37,116 nt of DNA from Bacteroidota bacterium (GTDB lineage: Bacteria; Bacteroidota; Bacteroidia; UKL13-3), in assembly GCA_947507965.1 (NCBI GenBank), contig CANNQU010000033.1, positions 1-37,116 on the forward strand, in the 5' to 3' direction. Positions 276-29,670 of this stretch are shown piece after piece. Under the pieces are notes generated by a model, which worked only from the letters and a program-made list of their open reading frames with translations, made no database searches and was not told the DNA's origin. Position numbers and translations under genes: made by a program. Position 1 is the first letter of the stretch. Each line of letters starts with the position of its first letter.

Positions 276-3200
276 CTACCTCCAATCGCCATACAACACA
301 AAGGCTCCCCAGAAAAAGGGATGAACATATTGGGGGTTCTTCGAAAGCGTGGCCTGTGCTTGTCGTAAGGCCTCTGCCTTGGGCATCGTCCTTAGGTTTT
401 TATAAAACTCCGTCATCAATAATCCCGTGGCGTCATCATCAACACTCCATAATGAGGCTACCACCGTTTTAACACCGCTTTCTAAAAAGGAATTGGCGGC
501 CGAGTAGTACCATCCCTTTATGGAGTCGTTGGTTACCGCCGTCTCACAGGCCGAAAGTACGACCATATCACAATCCGTGAGCTCCAACCCCTTTATCTCT
601 GTGATGCTTAAATTCCCATCATTAGAAACATCGGTGTTGAATTTTATATATGAGTTTTTGAAATTCGAGTTGTCTAAAATTCCATGGGTGGCGAAATGAA
701 TGTAATGCTTGCTCTCTAACGATTTTTTTGCCTGTATCTCGGTGGCCTCCTTGCCATAAAAATAGTCACCGGCAATCAGCATTTTTTGTATTTCTTTTAC
801 CTCCTTCTCTGCACTGGGAAGGTTTTTTTGGGTGTTGTTGAAATCGGGGTTTCCAAACGCTGCTATCGATGCCAGGCTGTCGTTGCCCAACGAATGATTT
901 AAAAATACATCCAATTTCGTGATGTAAAAGATGGAATAATCTTCTACTAAAAACCTGAAATCGCCTTCCGTAACACTGCTGCCTAATACTTGAAAGGGTA
1001 TATTGCATAGTTTCCCGTTGGGGATAATGCATAGTTTCGTTTTTCCTTTGAGGTCGGCAACAATAGGCTCGATGAGTATTCGATAAAGATCTTTTGAGGT
1101 TGCCAACAAACTTACACCGCTTTGTTTCGGTTCTTCTAATAAGGTGCCTCCCCTTAATTTAAGGGTATGTGCACCAGCCGATTTGTCGGGTACGTTAAGT
1201 AGCGCAATAAATGTTTTAACCTTCGCCTCTAATTCACTCTGCTTTATCTTTACAATGCTTACCTTCTTGGTTTCATTGGTTACTGTAAAGATGAATAAGT
1301 TATTATCGTTGAGTATATAGAGTACCACCGCCACATCGGAAGGAATCTTTTTCTTATACGTCTTAAACTCTTCCGGGTTGGCATGCTTCGCGAAGTTTTC
1401 GGTTAAATTAGGATATACCGTCACCAACGAGTCGATATAATTATTGTAGTTGGCTTCTACATTTAAAATGGTTCGTTCGTACGATTTAAGTATCTCTTTG
1501 TTCTGTTCTTCTTCGGGTTTGGCTTTTTCTTTGGATAGGTTTTCTTTGACGGTTTTTATTTGCAGGTCGAGCTGCTTTGCTTTTTCAATTGCTTCCAATT
1601 TCTTTTGATCATTGATAATAACGCCTCCCTGTGAAACTTTATCTTTAAGCCCCTGGATATTACTTCGGTTGGCATAATTGAATGCCGCATCGGTATCGTG
1701 TAAGGCAATAAATGCGGCTATTATTTTTGAGTACAGATCGACCTTACGGCTATCACTTGAAAATTTATTTCTTACCTTCTCATCGTCGAATACTTTACTC
1801 GAATTTTCTTCTACGATGGTAATGGCTTGATTGAAAAATACGACCGATGAATCGTACTTTTGTTGTGTGTAATAAATAACGCCTAAATCGTATAACGCCT
1901 CCCAGTTAAATTTAACGATATTGTATTTCTTTGATTCCGACACGCATTTTTGCAGATACGACACCCCTTTTTCTTGGTTATTTAATTTTAAATATACACG
2001 TCCCAAGTATAACGACGACTCTATAATCTTTTCGCGTTCTCTTGACAGTATGCCATATTCATTGGCTTCCAACAGATACGTTAAGGCCATAGGGTAATTT
2101 TTTTTCTCGTATTCTACCTTTCCCAATACCACACACGAAACTGCAATCATACGGTTGAGTTTTTTTTCTTTGGCTATCTTGTAGGCCGGTAAAAGGTAGG
2201 CTATGGCGGTGGCATAATCCTTTTTGGCTAAATACGCTTCCCCTAAGTTTAAGGCAAAGAGAAGCCATGCTTCGTTTCGTAAATTTATTTTTTCATGGGT
2301 GGAATATGCATTTTTTATGTACGGTAGGCATCCATCGTAGTCGGCCTGCCAATAGTAAAGTGTGCCCAGGTTATTTTGTGAGGTAGCCCAGCTTACTACA
2401 TTATTCTCTTTAAGATAAATACTATCAGCCTTACTGTAAAAGTAGTTTGCCTTTTTATAATCGGAGAGATGCTGATAGATGCCACCCTTATTGAGGTAAG
2501 CATTGGCCAAGTAGGTGTTGTTTTGGATGGTTTTTAATAGGGCAATCGAACGATCGGCATACGTTAAGGCATCATCAAAATTTCCGGTTAAGGAATAAAG
2601 ATAGCCGATGGAACTTAAAATATCCGACTGGTCGAGTTGGTTATCACTCTCTTTTACGATTTCTAAGGCCATAAAATAATATTTTTCGGCGGTGCTGAAG
2701 TCGCCTTTGGCGATATAATTGGATGCGATAGCTGAATACAGGGTCGAATTCTGGGTTACTTCACCTAAGGAGTCAAACAGATGAATCGCCTTTAAATAGT
2801 AAACGTTGGCTTGGTCAATATTTAATTCAATGGTGAAAATGCGAGCCATGTATTTGTAGCAAATGGCTCGTTCTCGTTCATTCGCGTTTTTGTTGATGAT
2901 ACGAAGGGCCTCATCAATTTTGTTTTTCGACTCGGCAAACTGGAAATTGGATGATGCCAGACTGGCTAAGTTAAACAAAGAATAAATTTGATTGCTCACA
3001 TCGCCCATACTTTTTGAAAGGGTATAACATATGGCAAAGTAATTACGTGAGGTGGCTGTATCATAGGTATAGGCAGCCGAGCCCATATTGTAAGTACAGG
3101 CTATGGTGTTTACCGTGTTCTTACTTTGTAATGCTATTTGATAGGCTTTATAATATTTTTCATAAGCCTTGATATTATTCTGTTCTTTAACAAATAAATC

Positions 3201-5093
3201 CCCGTGGGTAATATATACATCGTATAGGTTGGTAGAGTCTTGCGTGAGTAAGTAATAGCTCACCGCACTATCCAAGGCTGCCAACGCGTTGTTTTTTTCG
3301 CCGATATCGGTATATAGGCTGCCTAATTTGTTCCAGCAATAGGCCACACCGGCATAGTCGTTCTCCAATTTACGATAGCTCAAGGCTTCTTGATGAAAGA
3401 GTATCGCGGTATCATATTTGCCTAGTCGGTAATACGCTTGCGCTGCACCCGATCTGGAAAATCCTGCGGAGGAATACGAGTTCAACGATGAGTATAGGTA
3501 AAAGGCTTGATTATAATTTTCAATGCTTTGCGTTAAATTCCCCAGGTTGAAAAGCACGGAGGCTATACTATTGTGAGTGTCAGCAACTTTCTCCTGATCG
3601 CCTAAGTTTTTATAACTCTCCAGCAAATTGGTATAGGCAGTAAGTGCTTCCTGGTTTTGCCCTTGCTCTTTATAAATGGTGGCTACCATATCATAGTAGG
3701 TAATATTTCTTTTTTTGCTTTCTAATGTGTTTTGCTCGTTATTTACCCGAATGGCATTTTTGAAATTTTCGAGTGCATTATTAAAATCATAGATTCGGTA
3801 GTAGGAGAAGGCTAAGAAATAAAATATCTTTGGTTCATTAAATTCCTTATCCGATTCGCTAAATTCGTGCTTAAAGAGGTAGAAATCTTCCACTATCTTT
3901 TTTTGAATGAGTATCGCCTCCGAATATTTTTTTTGCGAGAATAAACAAAACGATTCCTTGCTATTGGTTTTTAATATTCCGGGATGGTTGTTTAATAAAG
4001 CGAAGTTTTCTCTCGACTTCCTGCTGTATCGTATGGCTTCAAGATAGTTTTCCTGATTCTGGTATATCTCTGCTTTATACAAATAGGCATTGGCTAAGCC
4101 GTTGGTGTCGTTCAACTCTTCGCCTACCTCAATAGCCAAATTGGCTATTTTAAAGGCTTGATCAAATTTTTTAGTGGGTATGAAATCAAGGCAACTGATA
4201 GCCCAATAATAAACCATTTCTTCATGTAAGATGGTTTTTGCATTGGCTCTAATAATTCGCTTTCTTTCGAGTTTGTTATTCTCGAAATAGTTTAACGAGT
4301 CTTGTATTTCATTTTTTGAATAGGGTGCTTTGTTTAATACCCAAGTGGCAAATATCTCCGGGAAATTCCAATCGTTCGATGAATAGGTATAAGCATAGGT
4401 ATTCACATATTTTGCAAAGGCCAATATATCCTTTGCCTGCGCTTGATTAAGCATCTCTATCACACTCTTCCCGATATATCTACCCTCCTTTAAGGGCTCA
4501 AATAAAACAGGATATTCTTCTTTTTTATCTTTTACTCTTTCATAGATTTCTTTTAAACTGGTAGTGCAAATATCGATAATGCTGTCTTCCATCTTCTTAC
4601 TGTCGTTATACAGCAAACGGTTGATATCGAAAAGGTCAATGGTATTAACAAGGAAATGGGTATTGCGTTTAATTAATTCAAAAAATATGGAATGATAGTT
4701 AGAAGGTGGAAGCTTAATATCAGCAATGGTAACATAATCGTAAGGCAGTACCACAGAAACAGGGTCGTTATTATTGTATCGAATAATGGTAGCATAACTG
4801 CTATCGCCAAATACGTGGGTGATAATGGCATAGCCCAGCGAGATATTGTCTCGGCCTTCTATTTTGTTTTTATTCGAACCGGAAACGAGGGCGGAGGTAT
4901 GGGGCTTTACGCCTTGGTTACTGCCTGCCCCTAGGGTTGCAAATACCGTATCTTCCTTTACTCGATGTATCGAAGTAATCCAAAAATCAAATGTGGCATA
5001 GTCGTCTTGTGGTTCTTTTTGTGCATTACTTTCAAAAGCGTTCAACAGCAATAATACGGTTAAACTTAATAACATTAGTTTTGAATTCTTCAT
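276..5093 (-). CDS. Exported TPR-repeat protein with C-terminal CHAT peptidase domain
   Basis: 1605 residues from the ATG at 5093; the codon just upstream at 5096 is TTG. An N-terminal signal peptide ends near residue 25 (ESNAQ). Residues about 37-125 look like a small beta domain with the pattern GAGSNQGVKP...LGYAIITHVFGDSSYATI, reminiscent of FlgT-C/SH3-like barrels (inference). Residues about 320-1130 are a long series of TPR units, then a helical linker rich in Lys and Glu (about 1180-1240). The C-terminal CHAT domain (about 1290-1605) keeps both catalytic positions of this caspase-like clan CD family: His1470 in HFATHG and Cys1516 in LSACET, followed by ANSFLESGVKTVVASLW. Known CHAT/TPR proteins act in proteolytic signalling or regulated cell death, but usually in the cytoplasm. 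Export here is inferred from the signal peptide. The substrate is unknown. It sits alone behind its own promoter-like site. Confidence 0.93.
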   Translation of the reverse strand: MKNSKLMLLSLTVLLLLNAFESNAQKEPQDDYATFDFWITSIHRVKEDTVFATLGAGSNQGVKPHTSALVSGSNKNKIEGRDNISLGYAIITHVFGDSSYATIIRYNNNDPVSVVLPYDYVTIADIKLPPSNYHSIFFELIKRNTHFLVNTIDLFDINRLLYNDSKKMEDSIIDICTTSLKEIYERVKDKKEEYPVLFEPLKEGRYIGKSVIEMLNQAQAKDILAFAKYVNTYAYTYSSNDWNFPEIFATWVLNKAPYSKNEIQDSLNYFENNKLERKRIIRANAKTILHEEMVYYWAISCLDFIPTKKFDQAFKIANLAIEVGEELNDTNGLANAYLYKAEIYQNQENYLEAIRYSRKSRENFALLNNHPGILKTNSKESFCLFSQKKYSEAILIQKKIVEDFYLFKHEFSESDKEFNEPKIFYFLAFSYYRIYDFNNALENFKNAIRVNNEQNTLESKKRNITYYDMVATIYKEQGQNQEALTAYTNLLESYKNLGDQEKVADTHNSIASVLFNLGNLTQSIENYNQAFYLYSSLNSYSSAGFSRSGAAQAYYRLGKYDTAILFHQEALSYRKLENDYAGVAYCWNKLGSLYTDIGEKNNALAALDSAVSYYLLTQDSTNLYDVYITHGDLFVKEQNNIKAYEKYYKAYQIALQSKNTVNTIACTYNMGSAAYTYDTATSRNYFAICYTLSKSMGDVSNQIYSLFNLASLASSNFQFAESKNKIDEALRIINKNANERERAICYKYMARIFTIELNIDQANVYYLKAIHLFDSLGEVTQNSTLYSAIASNYIAKGDFSTAEKYYFMALEIVKESDNQLDQSDILSSIGYLYSLTGNFDDALTYADRSIALLKTIQNNTYLANAYLNKGGIYQHLSDYKKANYFYSKADSIYLKENNVVSWATSQNNLGTLYYWQADYDGCLPYIKNAYSTHEKINLRNEAWLLFALNLGEAYLAKKDYATAIAYLLPAYKIAKEKKLNRMIAVSCVVLGKVEYEKKNYPMALTYLLEANEYGILSREREKIIESSLYLGRVYLKLNNQEKGVSYLQKCVSESKKYNIVKFNWEALYDLGVIYYTQQKYDSSVVFFNQAITIVEENSSKVFDDEKVRNKFSSDSRKVDLYSKIIAAFIALHDTDAAFNYANRSNIQGLKDKVSQGGVIINDQKKLEAIEKAKQLDLQIKTVKENLSKEKAKPEEEQNKEILKSYERTILNVEANYNNYIDSLVTVYPNLTENFAKHANPEEFKTYKKKIPSDVAVVLYILNDNNLFIFTVTNETKKVSIVKIKQSELEAKVKTFIALLNVPDKSAGAHTLKLRGGTLLEEPKQSGVSLLATSKDLYRILIEPIVADLKGKTKLCIIPNGKLCNIPFQVLGSSVTEGDFRFLVEDYSIFYITKLDVFLNHSLGNDSLASIAAFGNPDFNNTQKNLPSAEKEVKEIQKMLIAGDYFYGKEATEIQAKKSLESKHYIHFATHGILDNSNFKNSYIKFNTDVSNDGNLSITEIKGLELTDCDMVVLSACETAVTNDSIKGWYYSAANSFLESGVKTVVASLWSVDDDATGLLMTEFYKNLRTMPKAEALRQAQATLSKNPQYVHPFFWGAFVLYGDWR

Positions 5094-23278: not shown

Positions 23279-26200
23279 TTATTTGTCAACCTTAATAAGC
23301 CGGCTTGTCGCCTTCCCATATCCGTTAACGGCACTCACAAGGTAAACCCCTTGAGCCAGAGAAGCAATGTTTAATGTGACCGATGCCCCACTAATTAGAT
23401 TGATCGGTTGCTCTGCCACTTTAAATCCAAATATATTATAGATATAAAGCGTTGCCTTTCCCTCGAAATTTGGCATTACAATCTTTATCTGATCAAGAGC
23501 TGGATTCGGATAGATATTTATTGCCGTTGGTTTATTGGTTCGGTTGTTAATCATTATCGGGTTCGAATAGGCCATTCGATCCTCTCCGTTATGTTGAATT
23601 TTATGGGTGATAGCGGTAAAGGTCCATTCGCTTCCAGTGTCAACAACATTGAATTGAATGGCATTAAGTACGCTATCGGTAATGCTTGTGGAAAGCTCGG
23701 TCGCTGGTTCCGTATAAAATCCACAAGGAGGTTCTGCCCCAACCGAAACACTCCAATCGCCTACCACCGATTCATATACTATCGGTAGGTAGGAAATAGA
23801 GTCTGTGAACTCGATCGTCATAGGAGAAACAATCATCATCAATGAACCGTGTTCCTCGTGCACATCTCCTTCGGTGCATTTTCCTGTTTGGTCTTTCATA
23901 ACGGTATGATACCTTAACTTCGAGTTGGAGCAGGCGGTTAGATTATCGTCATTATCATCATCGCGGTCGTAGTTATTGCCATCAACATCTTCATGCCCGC
24001 CTATTTTTCTGCCAGTGTAAATAGTGCATGTCGTTCCACCACATTTCGTCGAAGCAACGGTTGATTGCCCTATGATAAGATAGTGCCCATTGGCTGGAAC
24101 TCTAATAATATATTTATAGGCTGGGCCACCACCCACAGATACTAATACACCACTACTAATGGAAACATTCGAGATCAGGTAATTGGTACCATTCCATAAA
24201 GTTGAATAATGGCTTTGATTCCCGTCGCGTTTGCCCGCGCTACTTCTATTAAATACTTTAAGGTTCGATGCGAGAGCCGATTTTGATACGCTAGGATGAT
24301 GACCTGTTCCTGTTGTATATAACGATGAATAGACCGTTATGGTCGCGCTTGGTATTACCGTAATGGTTTTACTTGATGTGCCGCTGCAGCCATTGGAATT
24401 GGTAACCATTAATGTTAATGTAAAGGTGGTGGTGCTGCATGAACTTAAAACGACCACTGAAGATGCACTTGAACTTCCAACGATACTTGTACCACTGCCA
24501 CTTATGCTCCAGCTATAGGTGGATAAACCGGATGGTGCGGAATAGGATGTGGCTAAAGCACCTAATACCGATGAACTTCCAGTTATCGTACTGCTTGGTG
24601 CTTCTGGTTGTCCTACCGTGGCAGAACCATTAGCCTCGCCGCAGCTATTGGTCACCGTAAAGGTGTATGTACCGGCAGGCACACCCGTAAGATTTGCGGT
24701 GGTTGCTCCATTACTCCATAAATAGGCAAGCGTTCCCGATCCGGAAACATGAGTTGTAATGGTGCCATCGCTATTGCCAATACATGTTACTGGTGTTGCA
24801 GTGGCATTGGAGATAATTGCCGGGGCGGTACAATTAGCAGCAAACGTAGCACTTATAGTATGGGCGGTTGTAACCGCAACAAATATCTTTTCGGTGAGTG
24901 TTCCTGCACTGCTTCCATCAATAATGACGTCTGCGATATGATATCCACTTGAAGGTGAAATGGTATAGGTTTGGTCGTAGCCCAAACACACACTAGTGGT
25001 ACCCGAAGGTGAAATATTGCCGTTGCTTCCTGCTGAAGCAGTTAAAGCATATAATGGCAATACGGTTTCTGTAATAGTCGATGAAGTAGCCGGATTTCCT
25101 GTAGCACAGCCAATAGTTGAAGTTAATGCACAGGTTATATAATCGGAGTTTGCCAGTGCTGCATCGGTATAAGTGTCACTATTGGTACCCACATTAATAC
25201 CGTTTTTCTTCCATTGATACGCGGGGGTTGAGCCACCATTAGTTGGAGTTGCCGTAAAGGTAACGCTCGTTCCGGCGCAGATGGTGCCTGATGGAGAAGC
25301 GGCAATACTAACACTAACGGGATTGTTTGCATTGATCGTTAAATTGGTCGTAATGGCACTATCGCAGCCCTTATAATTGGTAATATGTGATGTCTGAGTC
25401 CCGCTTACGGACATTGAAGTTCCGCCAGGTGGAGTATAACTTTGTCCGTTGCATATGGAGATAGAAGAACTGCTACTGCTACTATAACTGCTACAAGGGA
25501 AATAGCAACCACTAATGGTTATAGACTGATAATTATTTCCAGTGGATGTTCTAAAGTTAAACATCACAGTTCCTGCTAGTAATTCCATCTCCGGCTTAGT
25601 AAAATATCGGCCATCTCCTGCGCCTGAATACGCTATATCATAGGCAGAGGTATAAGTTACATGAGTCGTTGTCCAGGTTAATAAGGTATTCGAATTAGGA
25701 ATAACAACACTACCTTTAACTTGTGCAGTACTTTGGTAATTCATCACAAAGGAATAGGTACCCGGAAAAAACTCAGCATGCATTTCTCCATTGGCATCGG
25801 TAATGTTCGGAGCTGGAAAATAAGATGTTCCCCAAGTTGCACCATAACCCCATCCTGCCGTTGCTCCCGACAATCCGGTGAGATCACATTTTTGAATTCG
25901 TAATGTTAATGTATTGGTTTGGAAGAGGTAATATGAGTTTGTCGTTGGATTTTGCGGACCTACTACTGCGGTAGTTCCATTAACTCGTGCCTCATGTGCG
26001 ATACTACTTGGACTACCATCATAAAGGGCCGCGAGCAGGCCAAGGGCACCGGTGGTTCCAGGAACATACCAGTTCGTTCCGGTAACAGGACCTCCCCTGA
26101 ATGATATTCCTGAAATGGGGTTTTCAGTACTATTAAAAACTCGAAGAATGGTAATGGTTTTGTTTATACTCGTCATTCCTTCATAATCAAAGGTAAAGTT

Positions 26201-26731
26201 AACGCCACGAACTTCGTACCACTCAAATCCGGTATGAAAAGTTAAAGGCGCTCCAGTTGAATTCTTAGGGAATAATTCTCTTGAGTTCCATACACCACCT
26301 GCTTTTCCAAAGGAAATATACCCACCATTATCACTTCCGAAATCGAGATAACCACCAGAAAAGTGAAAAGTTACATTGGTGGTTTTAAAAGTAAAGGTAT
26401 TGCCTTCTGCAGCGGAAACAAAAGTAGTAGCGCTGCTTCTTGTGTTTAAATATTCTGCATAAACCGTATAGGTAACACCGGCAGTCAGGCTGATGGTACT
26501 TCCAGAGGCATTGGGCCCGGTGTAGTTCCCCCCACCATCGAATACTTTATAGATTGCGCCATCTAATACACCATTTGTACTTGTACTAAGATGTACTGTT
26601 AGGTCTCCAGCGTAAGCCGATAGCGATAATAAAAGGGATAAAACAGAAAATACTGATTTTTTTGAAGCAACGCCTTTCTTATAAATTTCAAGAAGGGTGA
26701 ATTGCTTTAGTTTGGTAAGGATTTTTTTCAT
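23279..26731 (-). CDS. T9SS cargo protein, Ig/PKD-like and SprB-type repeats
   Basis: 1150 residues. The signal peptide has a long basic N region and is probably cut at AYA|GDLTV (about residue 41). Residues about 42-409 are closely similar to the N-terminal part of the protein encoded at 26956-29670. There follow a serine run (SSYSSSSSSSISIC), Ig/PKD-like beta domains (about 440-560), an InlB-like repeat (YALTASAGSNGNISPSG, about 560-630), a SprB-type repeat (PVTCIGNSDGTITTHVSGSG, about 640-710) and a large Cys-containing module. The last 80 residues, from NIYPNPALDQ to RLIKVDK, are a T9SS type A sorting domain, so the protein is expected to be surface-bound or released. The ligand is unknown; an adhesive or matrix role is inference. 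Confidence 0.87.
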   Translation of the reverse strand: MKKILTKLKQFTLLEIYKKGVASKKSVFSVLSLLLSLSAYAGDLTVHLSTSTNGVLDGAIYKVFDGGGNYTGPNASGSTISLTAGVTYTVYAEYLNTRSSATTFVSAAEGNTFTFKTTNVTFHFSGGYLDFGSDNGGYISFGKAGGVWNSRELFPKNSTGAPLTFHTGFEWYEVRGVNFTFDYEGMTSINKTITILRVFNSTENPISGISFRGGPVTGTNWYVPGTTGALGLLAALYDGSPSSIAHEARVNGTTAVVGPQNPTTNSYYLFQTNTLTLRIQKCDLTGLSGATAGWGYGATWGTSYFPAPNITDANGEMHAEFFPGTYSFVMNYQSTAQVKGSVVIPNSNTLLTWTTTHVTYTSAYDIAYSGAGDGRYFTKPEMELLAGTVMFNFRTSTGNNYQSITISGCYFPCSSYSSSSSSSISICNGQSYTPPGGTSMSVSGTQTSHITNYKGCDSAITTNLTINANNPVSVSIAASPSGTICAGTSVTFTATPTNGGSTPAYQWKKNGINVGTNSDTYTDAALANSDYITCALTSTIGCATGNPATSSTITETVLPLYALTASAGSNGNISPSGTTSVCLGYDQTYTISPSSGYHIADVIIDGSSAGTLTEKIFVAVTTAHTISATFAANCTAPAIISNATATPVTCIGNSDGTITTHVSGSGTLAYLWSNGATTANLTGVPAGTYTFTVTNSCGEANGSATVGQPEAPSSTITGSSSVLGALATSYSAPSGLSTYSWSISGSGTSIVGSSSASSVVVLSSCSTTTFTLTLMVTNSNGCSGTSSKTITVIPSATITVYSSLYTTGTGHHPSVSKSALASNLKVFNRSSAGKRDGNQSHYSTLWNGTNYLISNVSISSGVLVSVGGGPAYKYIIRVPANGHYLIIGQSTVASTKCGGTTCTIYTGRKIGGHEDVDGNNYDRDDDNDDNLTACSNSKLRYHTVMKDQTGKCTEGDVHEEHGSLMMIVSPMTIEFTDSISYLPIVYESVVGDWSVSVGAEPPCGFYTEPATELSTSITDSVLNAIQFNVVDTGSEWTFTAITHKIQHNGEDRMAYSNPIMINNRTNKPTAINIYPNPALDQIKIVMPNFEGKATLYIYNIFGFKVAEQPINLISGASVTLNIASLAQGVYLVSAVNGYGKATSRLIKVDK
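25505..26731 (-). repeat. Paralogous N-terminal module, copy 1
   Basis: This stretch encodes the signal peptide and about 370 mature residues that align nearly gap-free with 28453-29670. Shared segments include FRGGPVTGTNWYVPGTTG, the following SPSSIAHEARVNGTTAVVGP, and WGTSYFPAPN. The similarity is visible at the DNA level and stops sharply after a shared SGC tripeptide. Confidence 0.9.
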
Positions 26732-26955: not shown

Positions 26956-29670
26956 TTATTTTATAGATATCATTGTTCGGTTCATTTGAACTGTATTATT
27001 ATCTGCTAATGACGTGGTTTGGAGTTTTACCAAGTAATTACCAGCAGGCATATTCGATGCGTTCCAGAACTCCTTGTATTCACCGGCTTCTTTGTTTTCA
27101 TTCACAAGTACAGCAATCTCTTTTCCAAGCATATCAAAAACAGTAAGCCTTACGTTACTTGCTTCGGTAATAAGAAATGGAATGGTAGTTCTTCCAACAA
27201 ACGGATTCGGGTAGTTTACACCAAGCCCAATTTTGTTGTTAGTCCCGTTTTGGGCCATGCCAGTAGTTTTCGATAAGGCCGAACCACTCCAAAGAAAATC
27301 AATCGTATAGGTTGTACCTGAAACAGTTCTATATTTAGATAAAGAAGTAGCTGAATAACCCAGCGTAAAATAGTAACTACCTGGTAAGAGCTCTTGTGAA
27401 ACTTCTCCATTAATATCCGTGGTACCAAAAGAATTGGTAAAATACTGATAGTCGGTAACCACTCCACTGCTTAGAGGGGAGGCTGCCCCATCTTTCAACG
27501 TTACGGTAGTTAAAGTTGTAGTGAAGGTAACGGTTGGAGTCGTTCCGATATTCTGATAGATTGAGCTCCTGCCGGAATTAAATGCGATATTAAAATAATA
27601 GTTACCCGGTAAAAGTTGCATTGTTGCTGTACCGCCTACGGTAACGCCACCTGCAAAGGTTGCTGTCTCGAATTGGTAATACGTCAGGCCAGTTGCATCT
27701 GATAATAAATCGCCATTATGATCACGTAATTCTAAATCTACTTTTTTGGTTTGGAAGGTAACCGTAGGTGTTGTGCCTATATTCTGATAGATCGTCATAC
27801 GTCCGCTTTTAAACTGCATATTGAAATAGTAACTCCCCGGCAAAAGTTGCATGGTTGCTGTACCGCCTAGGGTTACGCCACCAGCAAATATTGCAGTGGT
27901 AAATTGGTAGTAGGATAAATTTGTAGCGTCTGATAATAGTGCTCCAACATGATCCCGAAGTTCTAAATCTACTTTTTTGGTTTGGAAGGTAACAATAGGT
28001 GTTGTGCCGATATTCTGATAGATCGTCATACGACCGCTATTAAACTGCATATTAAAATAGTAGCTACCCGGTAAAAGTTGCATGGTTGCTACGCCCCCTA
28101 AGGTTACCCCAGCCGAGAATGTGTTGGTAGCATTTTGGTAATAACTTAAATTTGTTGCATCAGATAATAAGGCACCTAGATTATCACGCAACTCCATAAC
28201 CACATTTTTTGTTTGAAAAACTACCGTTGGGGTGGTTACGATGTTCTGATAAATGGTATAATTTCCAAAATTATAATTCATACTGAAATAGGCACTTGTC
28301 GCAGAAGCCGGCAACAATAGAAATAAGTTTCCACTTGCATTGGTAATCCCACCATATACGGTGCTTGAAATATAGTAATTTACAATGCCACCGGAGAGCC
28401 CAGCCCCACTTGAATTTATTAATCTTACCAACACTGGTTTATTATCATAAGTGCAACCACTAAAGGTGAGGGCGATGTAATTAGATCCACTCGGAGATCT
28501 AAAATTGAAATTGTATGTTCCCGGCAATAACTCCATATACGGCTTATTGAAATAACGGCTATCGCCACTTCCACCGTAAGCTATGTCGTAAGCCCATGCC
28601 AATATAACCTTGGTCGTCGTCCAGGTTAAAATCGTGTTCGCATTCGGAATAACAACACTACCTTTTACTTGTGCAGTGCTTTGGTAGTTCATCTCAAAGG
28701 AGTAGGTGCCAGGGAAAAATTCGGCGCATGTTTCTCCACTAGCATTGGTACTGTTAGGAGCAGGGAAATAGGATGTTCCCCAAGTTGCACCATAACCCCA
28801 TCGTACCGTTCCTCCTGTCAATCCCGTAAGATCACATTTCTGAAGTCGTAACGTAAGTTTGTTTGTCTGGAATAGGTAATATGAGTTCGTGGTTGGATTT
28901 TGTGGGCCAACGACTGCCGTGGTTCCATTCACTCGGGCCTCATGTGCGATACTGCTTGGACTGCCATTATAAAGGGCCGCGAGCATACCGGTGGCACCAG
29001 TGGTACCAGGAACATACCAGTTCGTTCCAGTAACAGGTCCTCCCCTGAATGAGACTCCAGAAATGGGGCTTGCCGTACTATTAAAAACGCGTAGAATAGT
29101 GATGGTTTTGTCAATACTAGTCATTCCTTCATAGTCAATGGTAAAGTTGAGGCCTCGAACATCGTACCAAACAAATCCGGTGTGAATCGTCATGGTATTT
29201 CCGTAGTAGTCTTTTGGAAATAATTCTTGAGCATTCCATACACCGGCTGTTTTACCGAAGCTAATCAAGCCTCCGGAAGCTGTGTAATCAAGATAACCGC
29301 CCGAAAAATTAAATTTAACGTTCGTGGTCTTGAAGGAATAGGTATTACCTCCAGCTGAAGAAACAAAGGTTTCGCGCTTGGTACTTGTACCAGAATAATG
29401 CACAAAAAAAGTGTATGTTGTGCCAGTCGTCAGACTAAGGGTAGTTCCTACTGCTGATTCACCTAAATAGTTAGGCCCTGAAAACAGTTGGTATTTAGCA
29501 CCTGTTAACGCCCCGCCGGTACTCGTTGTAGCATTCACGGTTAAATCTCCTGCCGAGGCGGAATTAAAGGAATAAAAGAGAATAAAAAAGACAAAGAATT
29601 TGCTTAACAACCCATTCGAAAACGTGTTGCTAAATAGAGTTTTAGATACTGCTAGGTGATTATTTTTCAT
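26956..29670 (-). CDS. T9SS cargo protein with tandem 77-residue beta repeats
   Basis: 904 residues. The signal peptide is probably cut at ASA|GDLTV. Residues to about 406 match the neighbouring paralogue. Residues 490-720 are three near-identical 77-residue repeats, each running from VDLELRDH through GGTATMQLLPGSYYFNM to IYQNIGTTPTVTFQTKK. More diverged copies precede (about 407-489) and follow (about 721-795) them. The unit resembles carboxypeptidase-regulatory/prealbumin-like beta domains (G-x-LLPG-x-YYF pattern); this is inference. The last 85-90 residues, from NYPNPFVGRTTIPF, are a T9SS type A sorting domain. It is probably a rod-like surface protein. Its leader region is long and AT-rich with a promoter-like site about 350 bases upstream. 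Confidence 0.87.
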   Translation of the reverse strand: MKNNHLAVSKTLFSNTFSNGLLSKFFVFFILFYSFNSASAGDLTVNATTSTGGALTGAKYQLFSGPNYLGESAVGTTLSLTTGTTYTFFVHYSGTSTKRETFVSSAGGNTYSFKTTNVKFNFSGGYLDYTASGGLISFGKTAGVWNAQELFPKDYYGNTMTIHTGFVWYDVRGLNFTIDYEGMTSIDKTITILRVFNSTASPISGVSFRGGPVTGTNWYVPGTTGATGMLAALYNGSPSSIAHEARVNGTTAVVGPQNPTTNSYYLFQTNKLTLRLQKCDLTGLTGGTVRWGYGATWGTSYFPAPNSTNASGETCAEFFPGTYSFEMNYQSTAQVKGSVVIPNANTILTWTTTKVILAWAYDIAYGGSGDSRYFNKPYMELLPGTYNFNFRSPSGSNYIALTFSGCTYDNKPVLVRLINSSGAGLSGGIVNYYISSTVYGGITNASGNLFLLLPASATSAYFSMNYNFGNYTIYQNIVTTPTVVFQTKNVVMELRDNLGALLSDATNLSYYQNATNTFSAGVTLGGVATMQLLPGSYYFNMQFNSGRMTIYQNIGTTPIVTFQTKKVDLELRDHVGALLSDATNLSYYQFTTAIFAGGVTLGGTATMQLLPGSYYFNMQFKSGRMTIYQNIGTTPTVTFQTKKVDLELRDHNGDLLSDATGLTYYQFETATFAGGVTVGGTATMQLLPGNYYFNIAFNSGRSSIYQNIGTTPTVTFTTTLTTVTLKDGAASPLSSGVVTDYQYFTNSFGTTDINGEVSQELLPGSYYFTLGYSATSLSKYRTVSGTTYTIDFLWSGSALSKTTGMAQNGTNNKIGLGVNYPNPFVGRTTIPFLITEASNVRLTVFDMLGKEIAVLVNENKEAGEYKEFWNASNMPAGNYLVKLQTTSLADNNTVQMNRTMISIK
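27511..28203 (-). repeat. Three in-frame 231-bp tandem repeats
   Basis: Units lie at 27973-28203, 27742-27972 and 27511-27741 (77 codons each). The DNA is nearly identical between units, especially the last two thirds, which suggests recent duplication or ongoing gene conversion. Copy number may vary between strains. Confidence 0.93.
28453..29670 (-). repeat. Paralogous N-terminal module, copy 2
   Basis: Counterpart of 25505-26731; the homology runs from the signal peptide to the shared SGC tripeptide, after which the two proteins are unrelated. Confidence 0.9.

Follow-up and report, generated by a model that had tools for sequence, protein, structure and literature searches.

A TPR-CHAT protein of Bacteroidota with a signal-like start and an N-terminal domain common to C14 caspase homologues: a possible exported receptor-protease

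One minus-strand gene of a Bacteroidota bacterium encodes a 1605-residue protein (P0001) in which a signal-like start, an N-terminal domain (NTD), a long TPR array and a CHAT peptidase domain with an intact catalytic dyad follow one another in a single chain. We suggest, from sequence comparison, that P0001 may be an exported receptor-protease in a Bacteroidota envelope protease relay, a reading to which we give a probability of about 0.42. The protein and its relatives form a CHAT clade of their own, carry an NTD that also heads C14 caspase homologues and, in three lineages, are encoded in clusters with further peptidases. The novelty lies in the NTD, its two peptidase families and the peptidase-containing clusters; export itself is ordinary for the class, which we take to be Bacteroidia. 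The window, by which we mean the whole stretch of DNA analysed, is an entire contig (C33; 37,116 nucleotides) of a 3.36 Mb genome in 147 contigs. G- and L-numbers denote genomes and loci of relatives, and P0002 is the NTD-C14 protein of the window's own genome.

Architecture of the window protein

The gene occupies positions 276..5093 of the minus strand as an open frame, with its ATG at 5093 and its stop codon at 276–278; the parts described below lie on the same strand. A sequence-only reading of this DNA had the strand wrong, the plus strand of 276–5093 being full of stops. Its central observation, that a signal-like start, a TPR array and a full CHAT dyad are combined in one chain, is borne out by the signal-peptide rule, Pfam and alignment.

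Residues 1–24 (5022..5093) are assigned as a signal peptide, the start MKNSKLMLLSLTVLLLLNAFESNA|Q passing the signal-peptide rule. The NTD follows in two parts: a predicted beta part at residues ~30–130 (4704..5006), delimited by alignments and without a Pfam family, and a helical 'YATW' part at residues 132–262 (4308..4700), delimited by alignments A1 and A5 and by genome searches. The TPR array covers residues ~291–1180 (1554..4223) in a 40-residue register. A charged linker, coiled-coil-like by eye and recognised from its sequence and its identity among relatives (residues 1181–1310; 1164..1553), leads to the CHAT domain at residues 1332–1603 (285..1100), which matches PF12770 with an E-value of 5.9e-61 and a score of 206.9 bits (cut-off 24). 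The dyad had been numbered correctly: His1470 (codon 684..686) lies within HFATHG and Cys1516 (codon 546..548) within LSACET. The C14 family PF00656 is not listed for P0001, and none of the nine PF00656 matches of the genome lies on this contig.

TPR families span the middle of the protein in Pfam, with a TPR_12 match at E 4e-54. Twelve strong units start between residues 421 and 1064, with spacings that are 40 residues or close to a multiple of it; 200 shuffles gave 0.76 such units on average and at most 3. By our reading, the gaps in this register would leave space for ~17–21 units in all. An orthologue (L028) is 78% identical and of exactly the same length, and the two proteins align without gaps.

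The type IX sorting tails Por_Secre_tail and CHU_C are absent from the Pfam list of P0001, and Por_Secre_tail is present in three other window proteins. The first 30 residues of P0001 contain no Cys, and hence no lipobox. Elsewhere in the window, two neighbouring type IX cargo proteins (23279–26731 and 26956–29670) have a long N-terminal likeness by eye, an apparent tandem duplication.

An N-terminal domain common to CHAT and C14 peptidases

Judged from alignments, residues ~21–300 of P0001 are a two-part undescribed domain that the sequence-only reading overlooked. When whole P0001 is compared with its own genome, a 1547-residue frame on contig C44 (P0002) matches at residues 30–306 only, with a blastp E-value of 5e-14 for the shared part; P0002 continues from its NTD into WD40 repeats and a C-terminal caspase domain with SGHG and DACHSG motifs. 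The NTD has no family match in Pfam or NCBIfam. Searched against solved structures, the NTD profiles reach best E-values of 0.44 (A1) and 0.0077 (A2, telomerase chains), weak matches that we take as chance. AlphaFold models (two sequences each) have a mean pLDDT of 36.6 for the CHAT region and 38.9 for the NTD, and it is from the latter, low-confidence model that the secondary structure of the beta part is predicted. The helical part ends near the YATW motif, and one Trp is invariant in 23/23 sequences.

Five prokaryotic C14 caspase homologues (orthocaspases/metacaspases) carry the NTD of P0001, one with WD40 repeats (P0002) and four with TPR units; they differ from P0001 in peptidase family, ending in PF00656 where P0001 has PF12770. 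We read the four TPR-C14 proteins as having two caspase units, a degenerate one followed by an intact one; Pfam marks a second PF00656 stretch in G293 and G192 and one stretch only in G172. WD40 and TPR partners are described for prokaryotic C14 homologues in PMC3501461. By these sequence comparisons, the same NTD is found at the head of two peptidase families of one clan. The NTD tree leaves the order of CHAT and C14 unsettled and places P0002 among the CHAT proteins without strong support; L045, a broken frame that fails the signal rule, and L046, a 52-residue fragment, were left out of it.

Eight smaller proteins, of which two have WG repeats, contain the helical part and no peptidase. At L043:3123–4400 and L044:7295–8533 the helical part of a signal-bearing protein is followed by a second stretch common to both proteins. 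At L121:47–2152 (G913), a 701-residue frame combines NTD and TPR with a tail that resembles by eye the end of the M48 neighbour in G879, and it may have arisen by a deletion that fused two genes or through faulty assembly. The frame at L045:7265–8149 (G373) starts like an NTD-CHAT gene and stops after 294 residues near the contig end; it may be a broken gene or, again, an assembly fault.

The NTD is rare and patchy. A 276-residue NTD query has matches in 12/295 genomes of the class, and the helical profile in 18/395 genomes of an overlapping draw of the class, 5/395 of a draw of the phylum, 5/245 in the class of G538 and 3/195 in the class of G590. Within the window's order the profile matches 4/64 genomes, all of the window's genus, and one of the five genomes of that genus is without a match. 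The query or centre genomes are counted in these figures, and the searches were made within the phylum.

The CHAT domain and its clade

The His and Cys columns are invariant in 68/68 alignable CHAT domains. A CHAT tree of 75 leaves, comprising 57 of the 58 class CHATs discussed below, the second CHAT of the window's genome, two cluster neighbours and 15 NTD-CHATs, places 15/15 NTD-CHATs in one clade with support 1.0 and no extra leaf inside; support for this clade was 0.999 in an earlier tree of 68 CHATs. L057, which the seed profile missed and which has no SAC motif, is counted among the 58 and left out of the CHAT alignments and trees. P0001 itself has both marks of the group, an NTD before its TPR array and a CHAT domain inside the supported clade. 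The NTD profiles match 0/58 class CHATs at E 10 or better, nor do they match the second, 1125-residue TPR-CHAT of the same genome. Other TPR-CHATs of the class, of which this last protein is an example, share the dyad and usually a signal-like start and TPR units, but they are without the NTD and fall outside the clade. The residues after the catalytic Cys also differ, being GLG... in four compared other TPR-CHATs and A... in the NTD-CHAT family.

A CHAT profile (A6) built from 10 NTD-CHATs and the second CHAT of the window's genome matches TPR-CHAT/Csx29 chains of type III-E CRISPR in the PDB (8d9f, 7x8a, 7y9x and 7zoq are examples of such chains), with a best E-value of 8.6e-8. Like P0001, Csx29 has a TPR array before a CHAT cysteine peptidase, and the His and Cys share columns with those of the PDB CHAT chains in the two alignments printed. 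Csx29 is described as a three-helix NTD followed by eight repeats, with H615 and C658 as catalytic residues (PMC10028731), whereas P0001 has a signal-like start and a longer repeat array, and the N-terminal domains of the two are unrelated in profile searches. No Cas7-11 or Csx30 gene was recognised among the ORFs of the window and L028, part of which were scanned with Pfam.

Unequal conservation along the chain

Between P0001 and the 78% orthologue, identity is 36% in the signal peptide, 67% in the NTD, 79% in the TPR array and 85% in the CHAT domain. CHAT is more conserved than the NTD and than the TPR array in 17/17 listed pairs, which are those with CHAT identity >55% together with the window protein paired with five distant members. 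In the closest genus pair (L124/L125) this lead over NTD and TPR is just one to four points, and in three of the pairs the linker stands one to three points above CHAT. Synonymous sites are saturated between P0001 and the orthologue, and dN/dS by domain is therefore uninformative.

TPR arrays are general scaffolds, and P0001 could have an assembly or chaperone-like role in the periplasm, for which its CHAT fold would be conserved without protease activity being important. The location of the gene next to NAD synthase, and the lack of a recognised substrate gene, would suit such a protein. Both the invariance of the dyad and the consistently higher conservation of CHAT relative to the NTD and TPR array speak against it, and we consider it improbable.

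A second feature of the divergence is seen against G990, where identity to P0001 jumps at residue 1298, close to the beginning of CHAT, from 56% to 84%. The G990 CHAT is no further from that of P0001 than is the CHAT of the nearer orthologue, and the TPR/CHAT distance ratio is 2.57–3.08 in the four pairs across the step versus 1.26–2.41 in the other pairs. These sequences suggest an exchange of the CHAT end; the front ends of other listed pairs also diverge faster, and unequal rates would likewise explain the step.

This step, the faster divergence of NTD and TPR than of CHAT, and the patchy spread (a single genus in the order) would all fit a defence or conflict effector, namely an exported protease for death or antagonism whose receptor end varies, and CHAT and caspase-like peptidases have been described as effectors (PMC10907252). 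Several results make this reading quite improbable. PADLOC has no system-specific model that matches and yields generic TPR and caspase hits, a generic TPR model being the only one for P0001 at E up to 0.01; reading of the window ORFs, for which 8 of ~20 proteins were Pfam-scanned, brought no mobile or defence gene to light; and no relatives were found in plasmids (queried with residues 26–441) or in phages (queried with CHAT). Export would also be odd for phage defence.

Signal-like starts in the class

PF12770 matches are present in 51/149 genomes of the class. Fifty-eight CHAT proteins were hand-picked from these matches, each genome's best first, with 60 loci fetched and two left out (L104, a partial CHAT match, and L111, at a contig edge); the set excludes the NTD-bearing CHATs of G000, G078 and G099. 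The signal rule, which is no dedicated predictor and takes the best of several possible starts, is passed by 51/58 of these proteins (44 genomes), compared with 17/1160 internal windows of the same proteins in a control where one in four V and L residues is drawn to approximate GTG and TTG starts. Of the seven that fail, L060, L080 and L082 appear signal-like by eye and are uncounted. The suggestion that export is unusual for a TPR-CHAT protein is contradicted by these numbers, and since signal-like starts are the rule in the class, a signal peptide on the CHAT protein itself is no surprise. Among the genomes searched, G001, G039, G079 and G085 have 13–14 CHAT matches each, contig-end fragments included.

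The NTD-bearing proteins follow the same pattern. All 15/15 NTD-CHATs pass the rule, as do 4/5 NTD-C14s (the fifth, P0002, is cut by the contig end) and 8/8 whole proteins that have the helical part and no peptidase. In the window's own genome the 1125-residue TPR-CHAT (L011:8274–11651) has a hydrophobic start that fails the rule, and among the nine C14 matches 7/9 pass, one fails and one, P0002, is the truncated frame. We found no paper on exported Bacteroidota TPR-CHATs in the open-licence literature. As early as 2012, prokaryotic caspase homologues were noted as likely bearers of signal peptides (PMC3501461), and CHAT proteins, one of them apparently transmembrane, are reported from a T6SS region of Bacteroides fragilis (PMC11854122).

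The export call rests on a simple rule applied to sequence, and the hydrophobic start of P0001 could be an uncleaved anchor, or the product of a wrong start codon, with the protease facing the cytoplasm. The recurrence of signal-like starts throughout the family and in most other CHATs of the class, at a rate far above the control, renders a cytoplasmic protease very improbable.

Peptidases and regulators beside the gene

Beyond the end of the gene, 275 bases of the window remain. NAD synthase lies upstream both here and at L028, where an arylmalonate-decarboxylase-like gene follows; in two further genomes of the genus the gene sits elsewhere, between DinB-like genes and others. The loci were sorted into ten lineages, defined and counted after they were seen: window/G330, G990/G991, P0002 (one side only), G099/G219/G334, G078, G172/G299, G293/G192, G538/G711/G646, G590/G879 and G735/G744.

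In 3/10 lineages the NTD gene belongs to a same-strand cluster with another exported-type caspase-clan peptidase. (i) In G590 and G879, which represent two genera, NTD-CHAT is followed by a C14-DUF4384 gene and then by an M48 gene; in G590 the first two overlap by 4 bases, and this C14 is the only C14 match in that genome. (ii) In G172 and G299 the order is Trypsin_2, C14-DUF4384, NTD-C14. (iii) In G538 a second TPR-CHAT lies 12 bases upstream of NTD-CHAT, and in G646 one gene separates the two, the neighbour in G711 being known solely as a CHAT-search match. The tested peptidase neighbours in these clusters pass the signal rule in 10/10 cases. A fourth lineage, confined to one genus (G735/G744), has a PrsW-family intramembrane metalloprotease gene just before NTD-CHAT on the same strand (L122:7800–8915; L123:7790–8911).

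Among the scanned neighbours, three of which have no family, there is no caspase-clan gene in 7/10 lineages, including that of the window, and in 6/10 there is no peptidase of any kind beside the gene. The earlier statement that no cognate gene lies nearby stands for the window; for some relatives, which have adjacent peptidases, it does not. Proximity within two genes is expected by chance for <1% per gene, and three of ten lineages near 1e-4, on the basis of 3–8 other caspase-clan genes per genome (five genomes), one gene per 1100 bases and even spacing. G538, G711 and G646 also have caspase-clan genes close together at other places, so that even spacing fails there and the figure of 1e-4 overstates the case.

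Other genes recur beside the family. At L030:11827–13673 and L035:11066–12893, in two genera, a sigma-factor-like gene (ECF by Pfam in L030) and then a gene for a CHU_C (type IX) protein are divergent to NTD-C14. Also in two genera, a FecR-domain protein and a ~355-residue protein (no Pfam family in L048) are encoded beside the CHAT pair (L048:14023–15764; L050:2416–4220).

PrsW is an anti-sigma protease in Bacillus. Its presence, together with ECF sigma and FecR neighbours in some relatives, favours the strongest rival to a relay, in which the exported CHAT would be a regulatory protease that switches gene expression by cleaving an anti-sigma or receptor protein in its outer part. The PrsW-family gene precedes NTD-CHAT in both G735 and G744, an ECF sigma gene with a CHU_C protein is divergent to NTD-C14 in G293 by Pfam and is read likewise in G192, FecR-domain proteins are encoded near NTD-CHAT in G538 and G646, and a histidine kinase and response regulator follow NTD-CHAT in G078. 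The analogy would be with Csx29, which cleaves Csx30, a sigma factor inhibitor (PMC10028731). No such gene touches NTD-CHAT in the window, L028 or G990/G991, however, and the sigma gene of the window is ~9 kb off. We regard a regulatory role of this kind as unlikely.

A possible envelope relay

For the location, activation and substrate of P0001, and for the relay itself, we infer the following scheme. The signal peptide would carry the protein across the inner membrane, where the NTD and some twenty TPR units could constitute a large binding scaffold. A bound ligand or partner might then rearrange CHAT into an active cysteine endopeptidase, much as target binding rearranges the active site of Csx29 via its TPR activation region (PMC10028731). 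Active CHAT would carry out limited proteolysis of envelope proteins, a second peptidase possibly among them. Because some relatives' neighbourhoods carry other exported peptidases, these are likely to be among the partners or targets, and a proteolytic relay could result. The envelope-located proteolytic switch proposed in the sequence-only reading is likewise a hypothesis. A broader and more doubtful extension is that the NTD is the receptor or docking module of undescribed envelope relays in general, with either CHAT or C14 placed behind one exported sensor and cooperating with another peptidase, exported or in the membrane, whose gene is adjacent (caspase, CHAT, M48, trypsin-like or PrsW).

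In bacteria, the most familiar caspase-clan proteases are cytoplasmic and serve as death effectors or as CRISPR partners. Within one class of Bacteroidota such proteases appear to be exported as a matter of routine. A subset of them carries an unnamed NTD common to two peptidase families and, in several lineages, has more proteases of the exported or membrane kind as neighbours. For testing the relay, the G590/G879 and G172/G299 cluster types provide defined three-protein sets. If the relay exists, bacteria would possess a caspase cascade that runs outside the cytoplasm.
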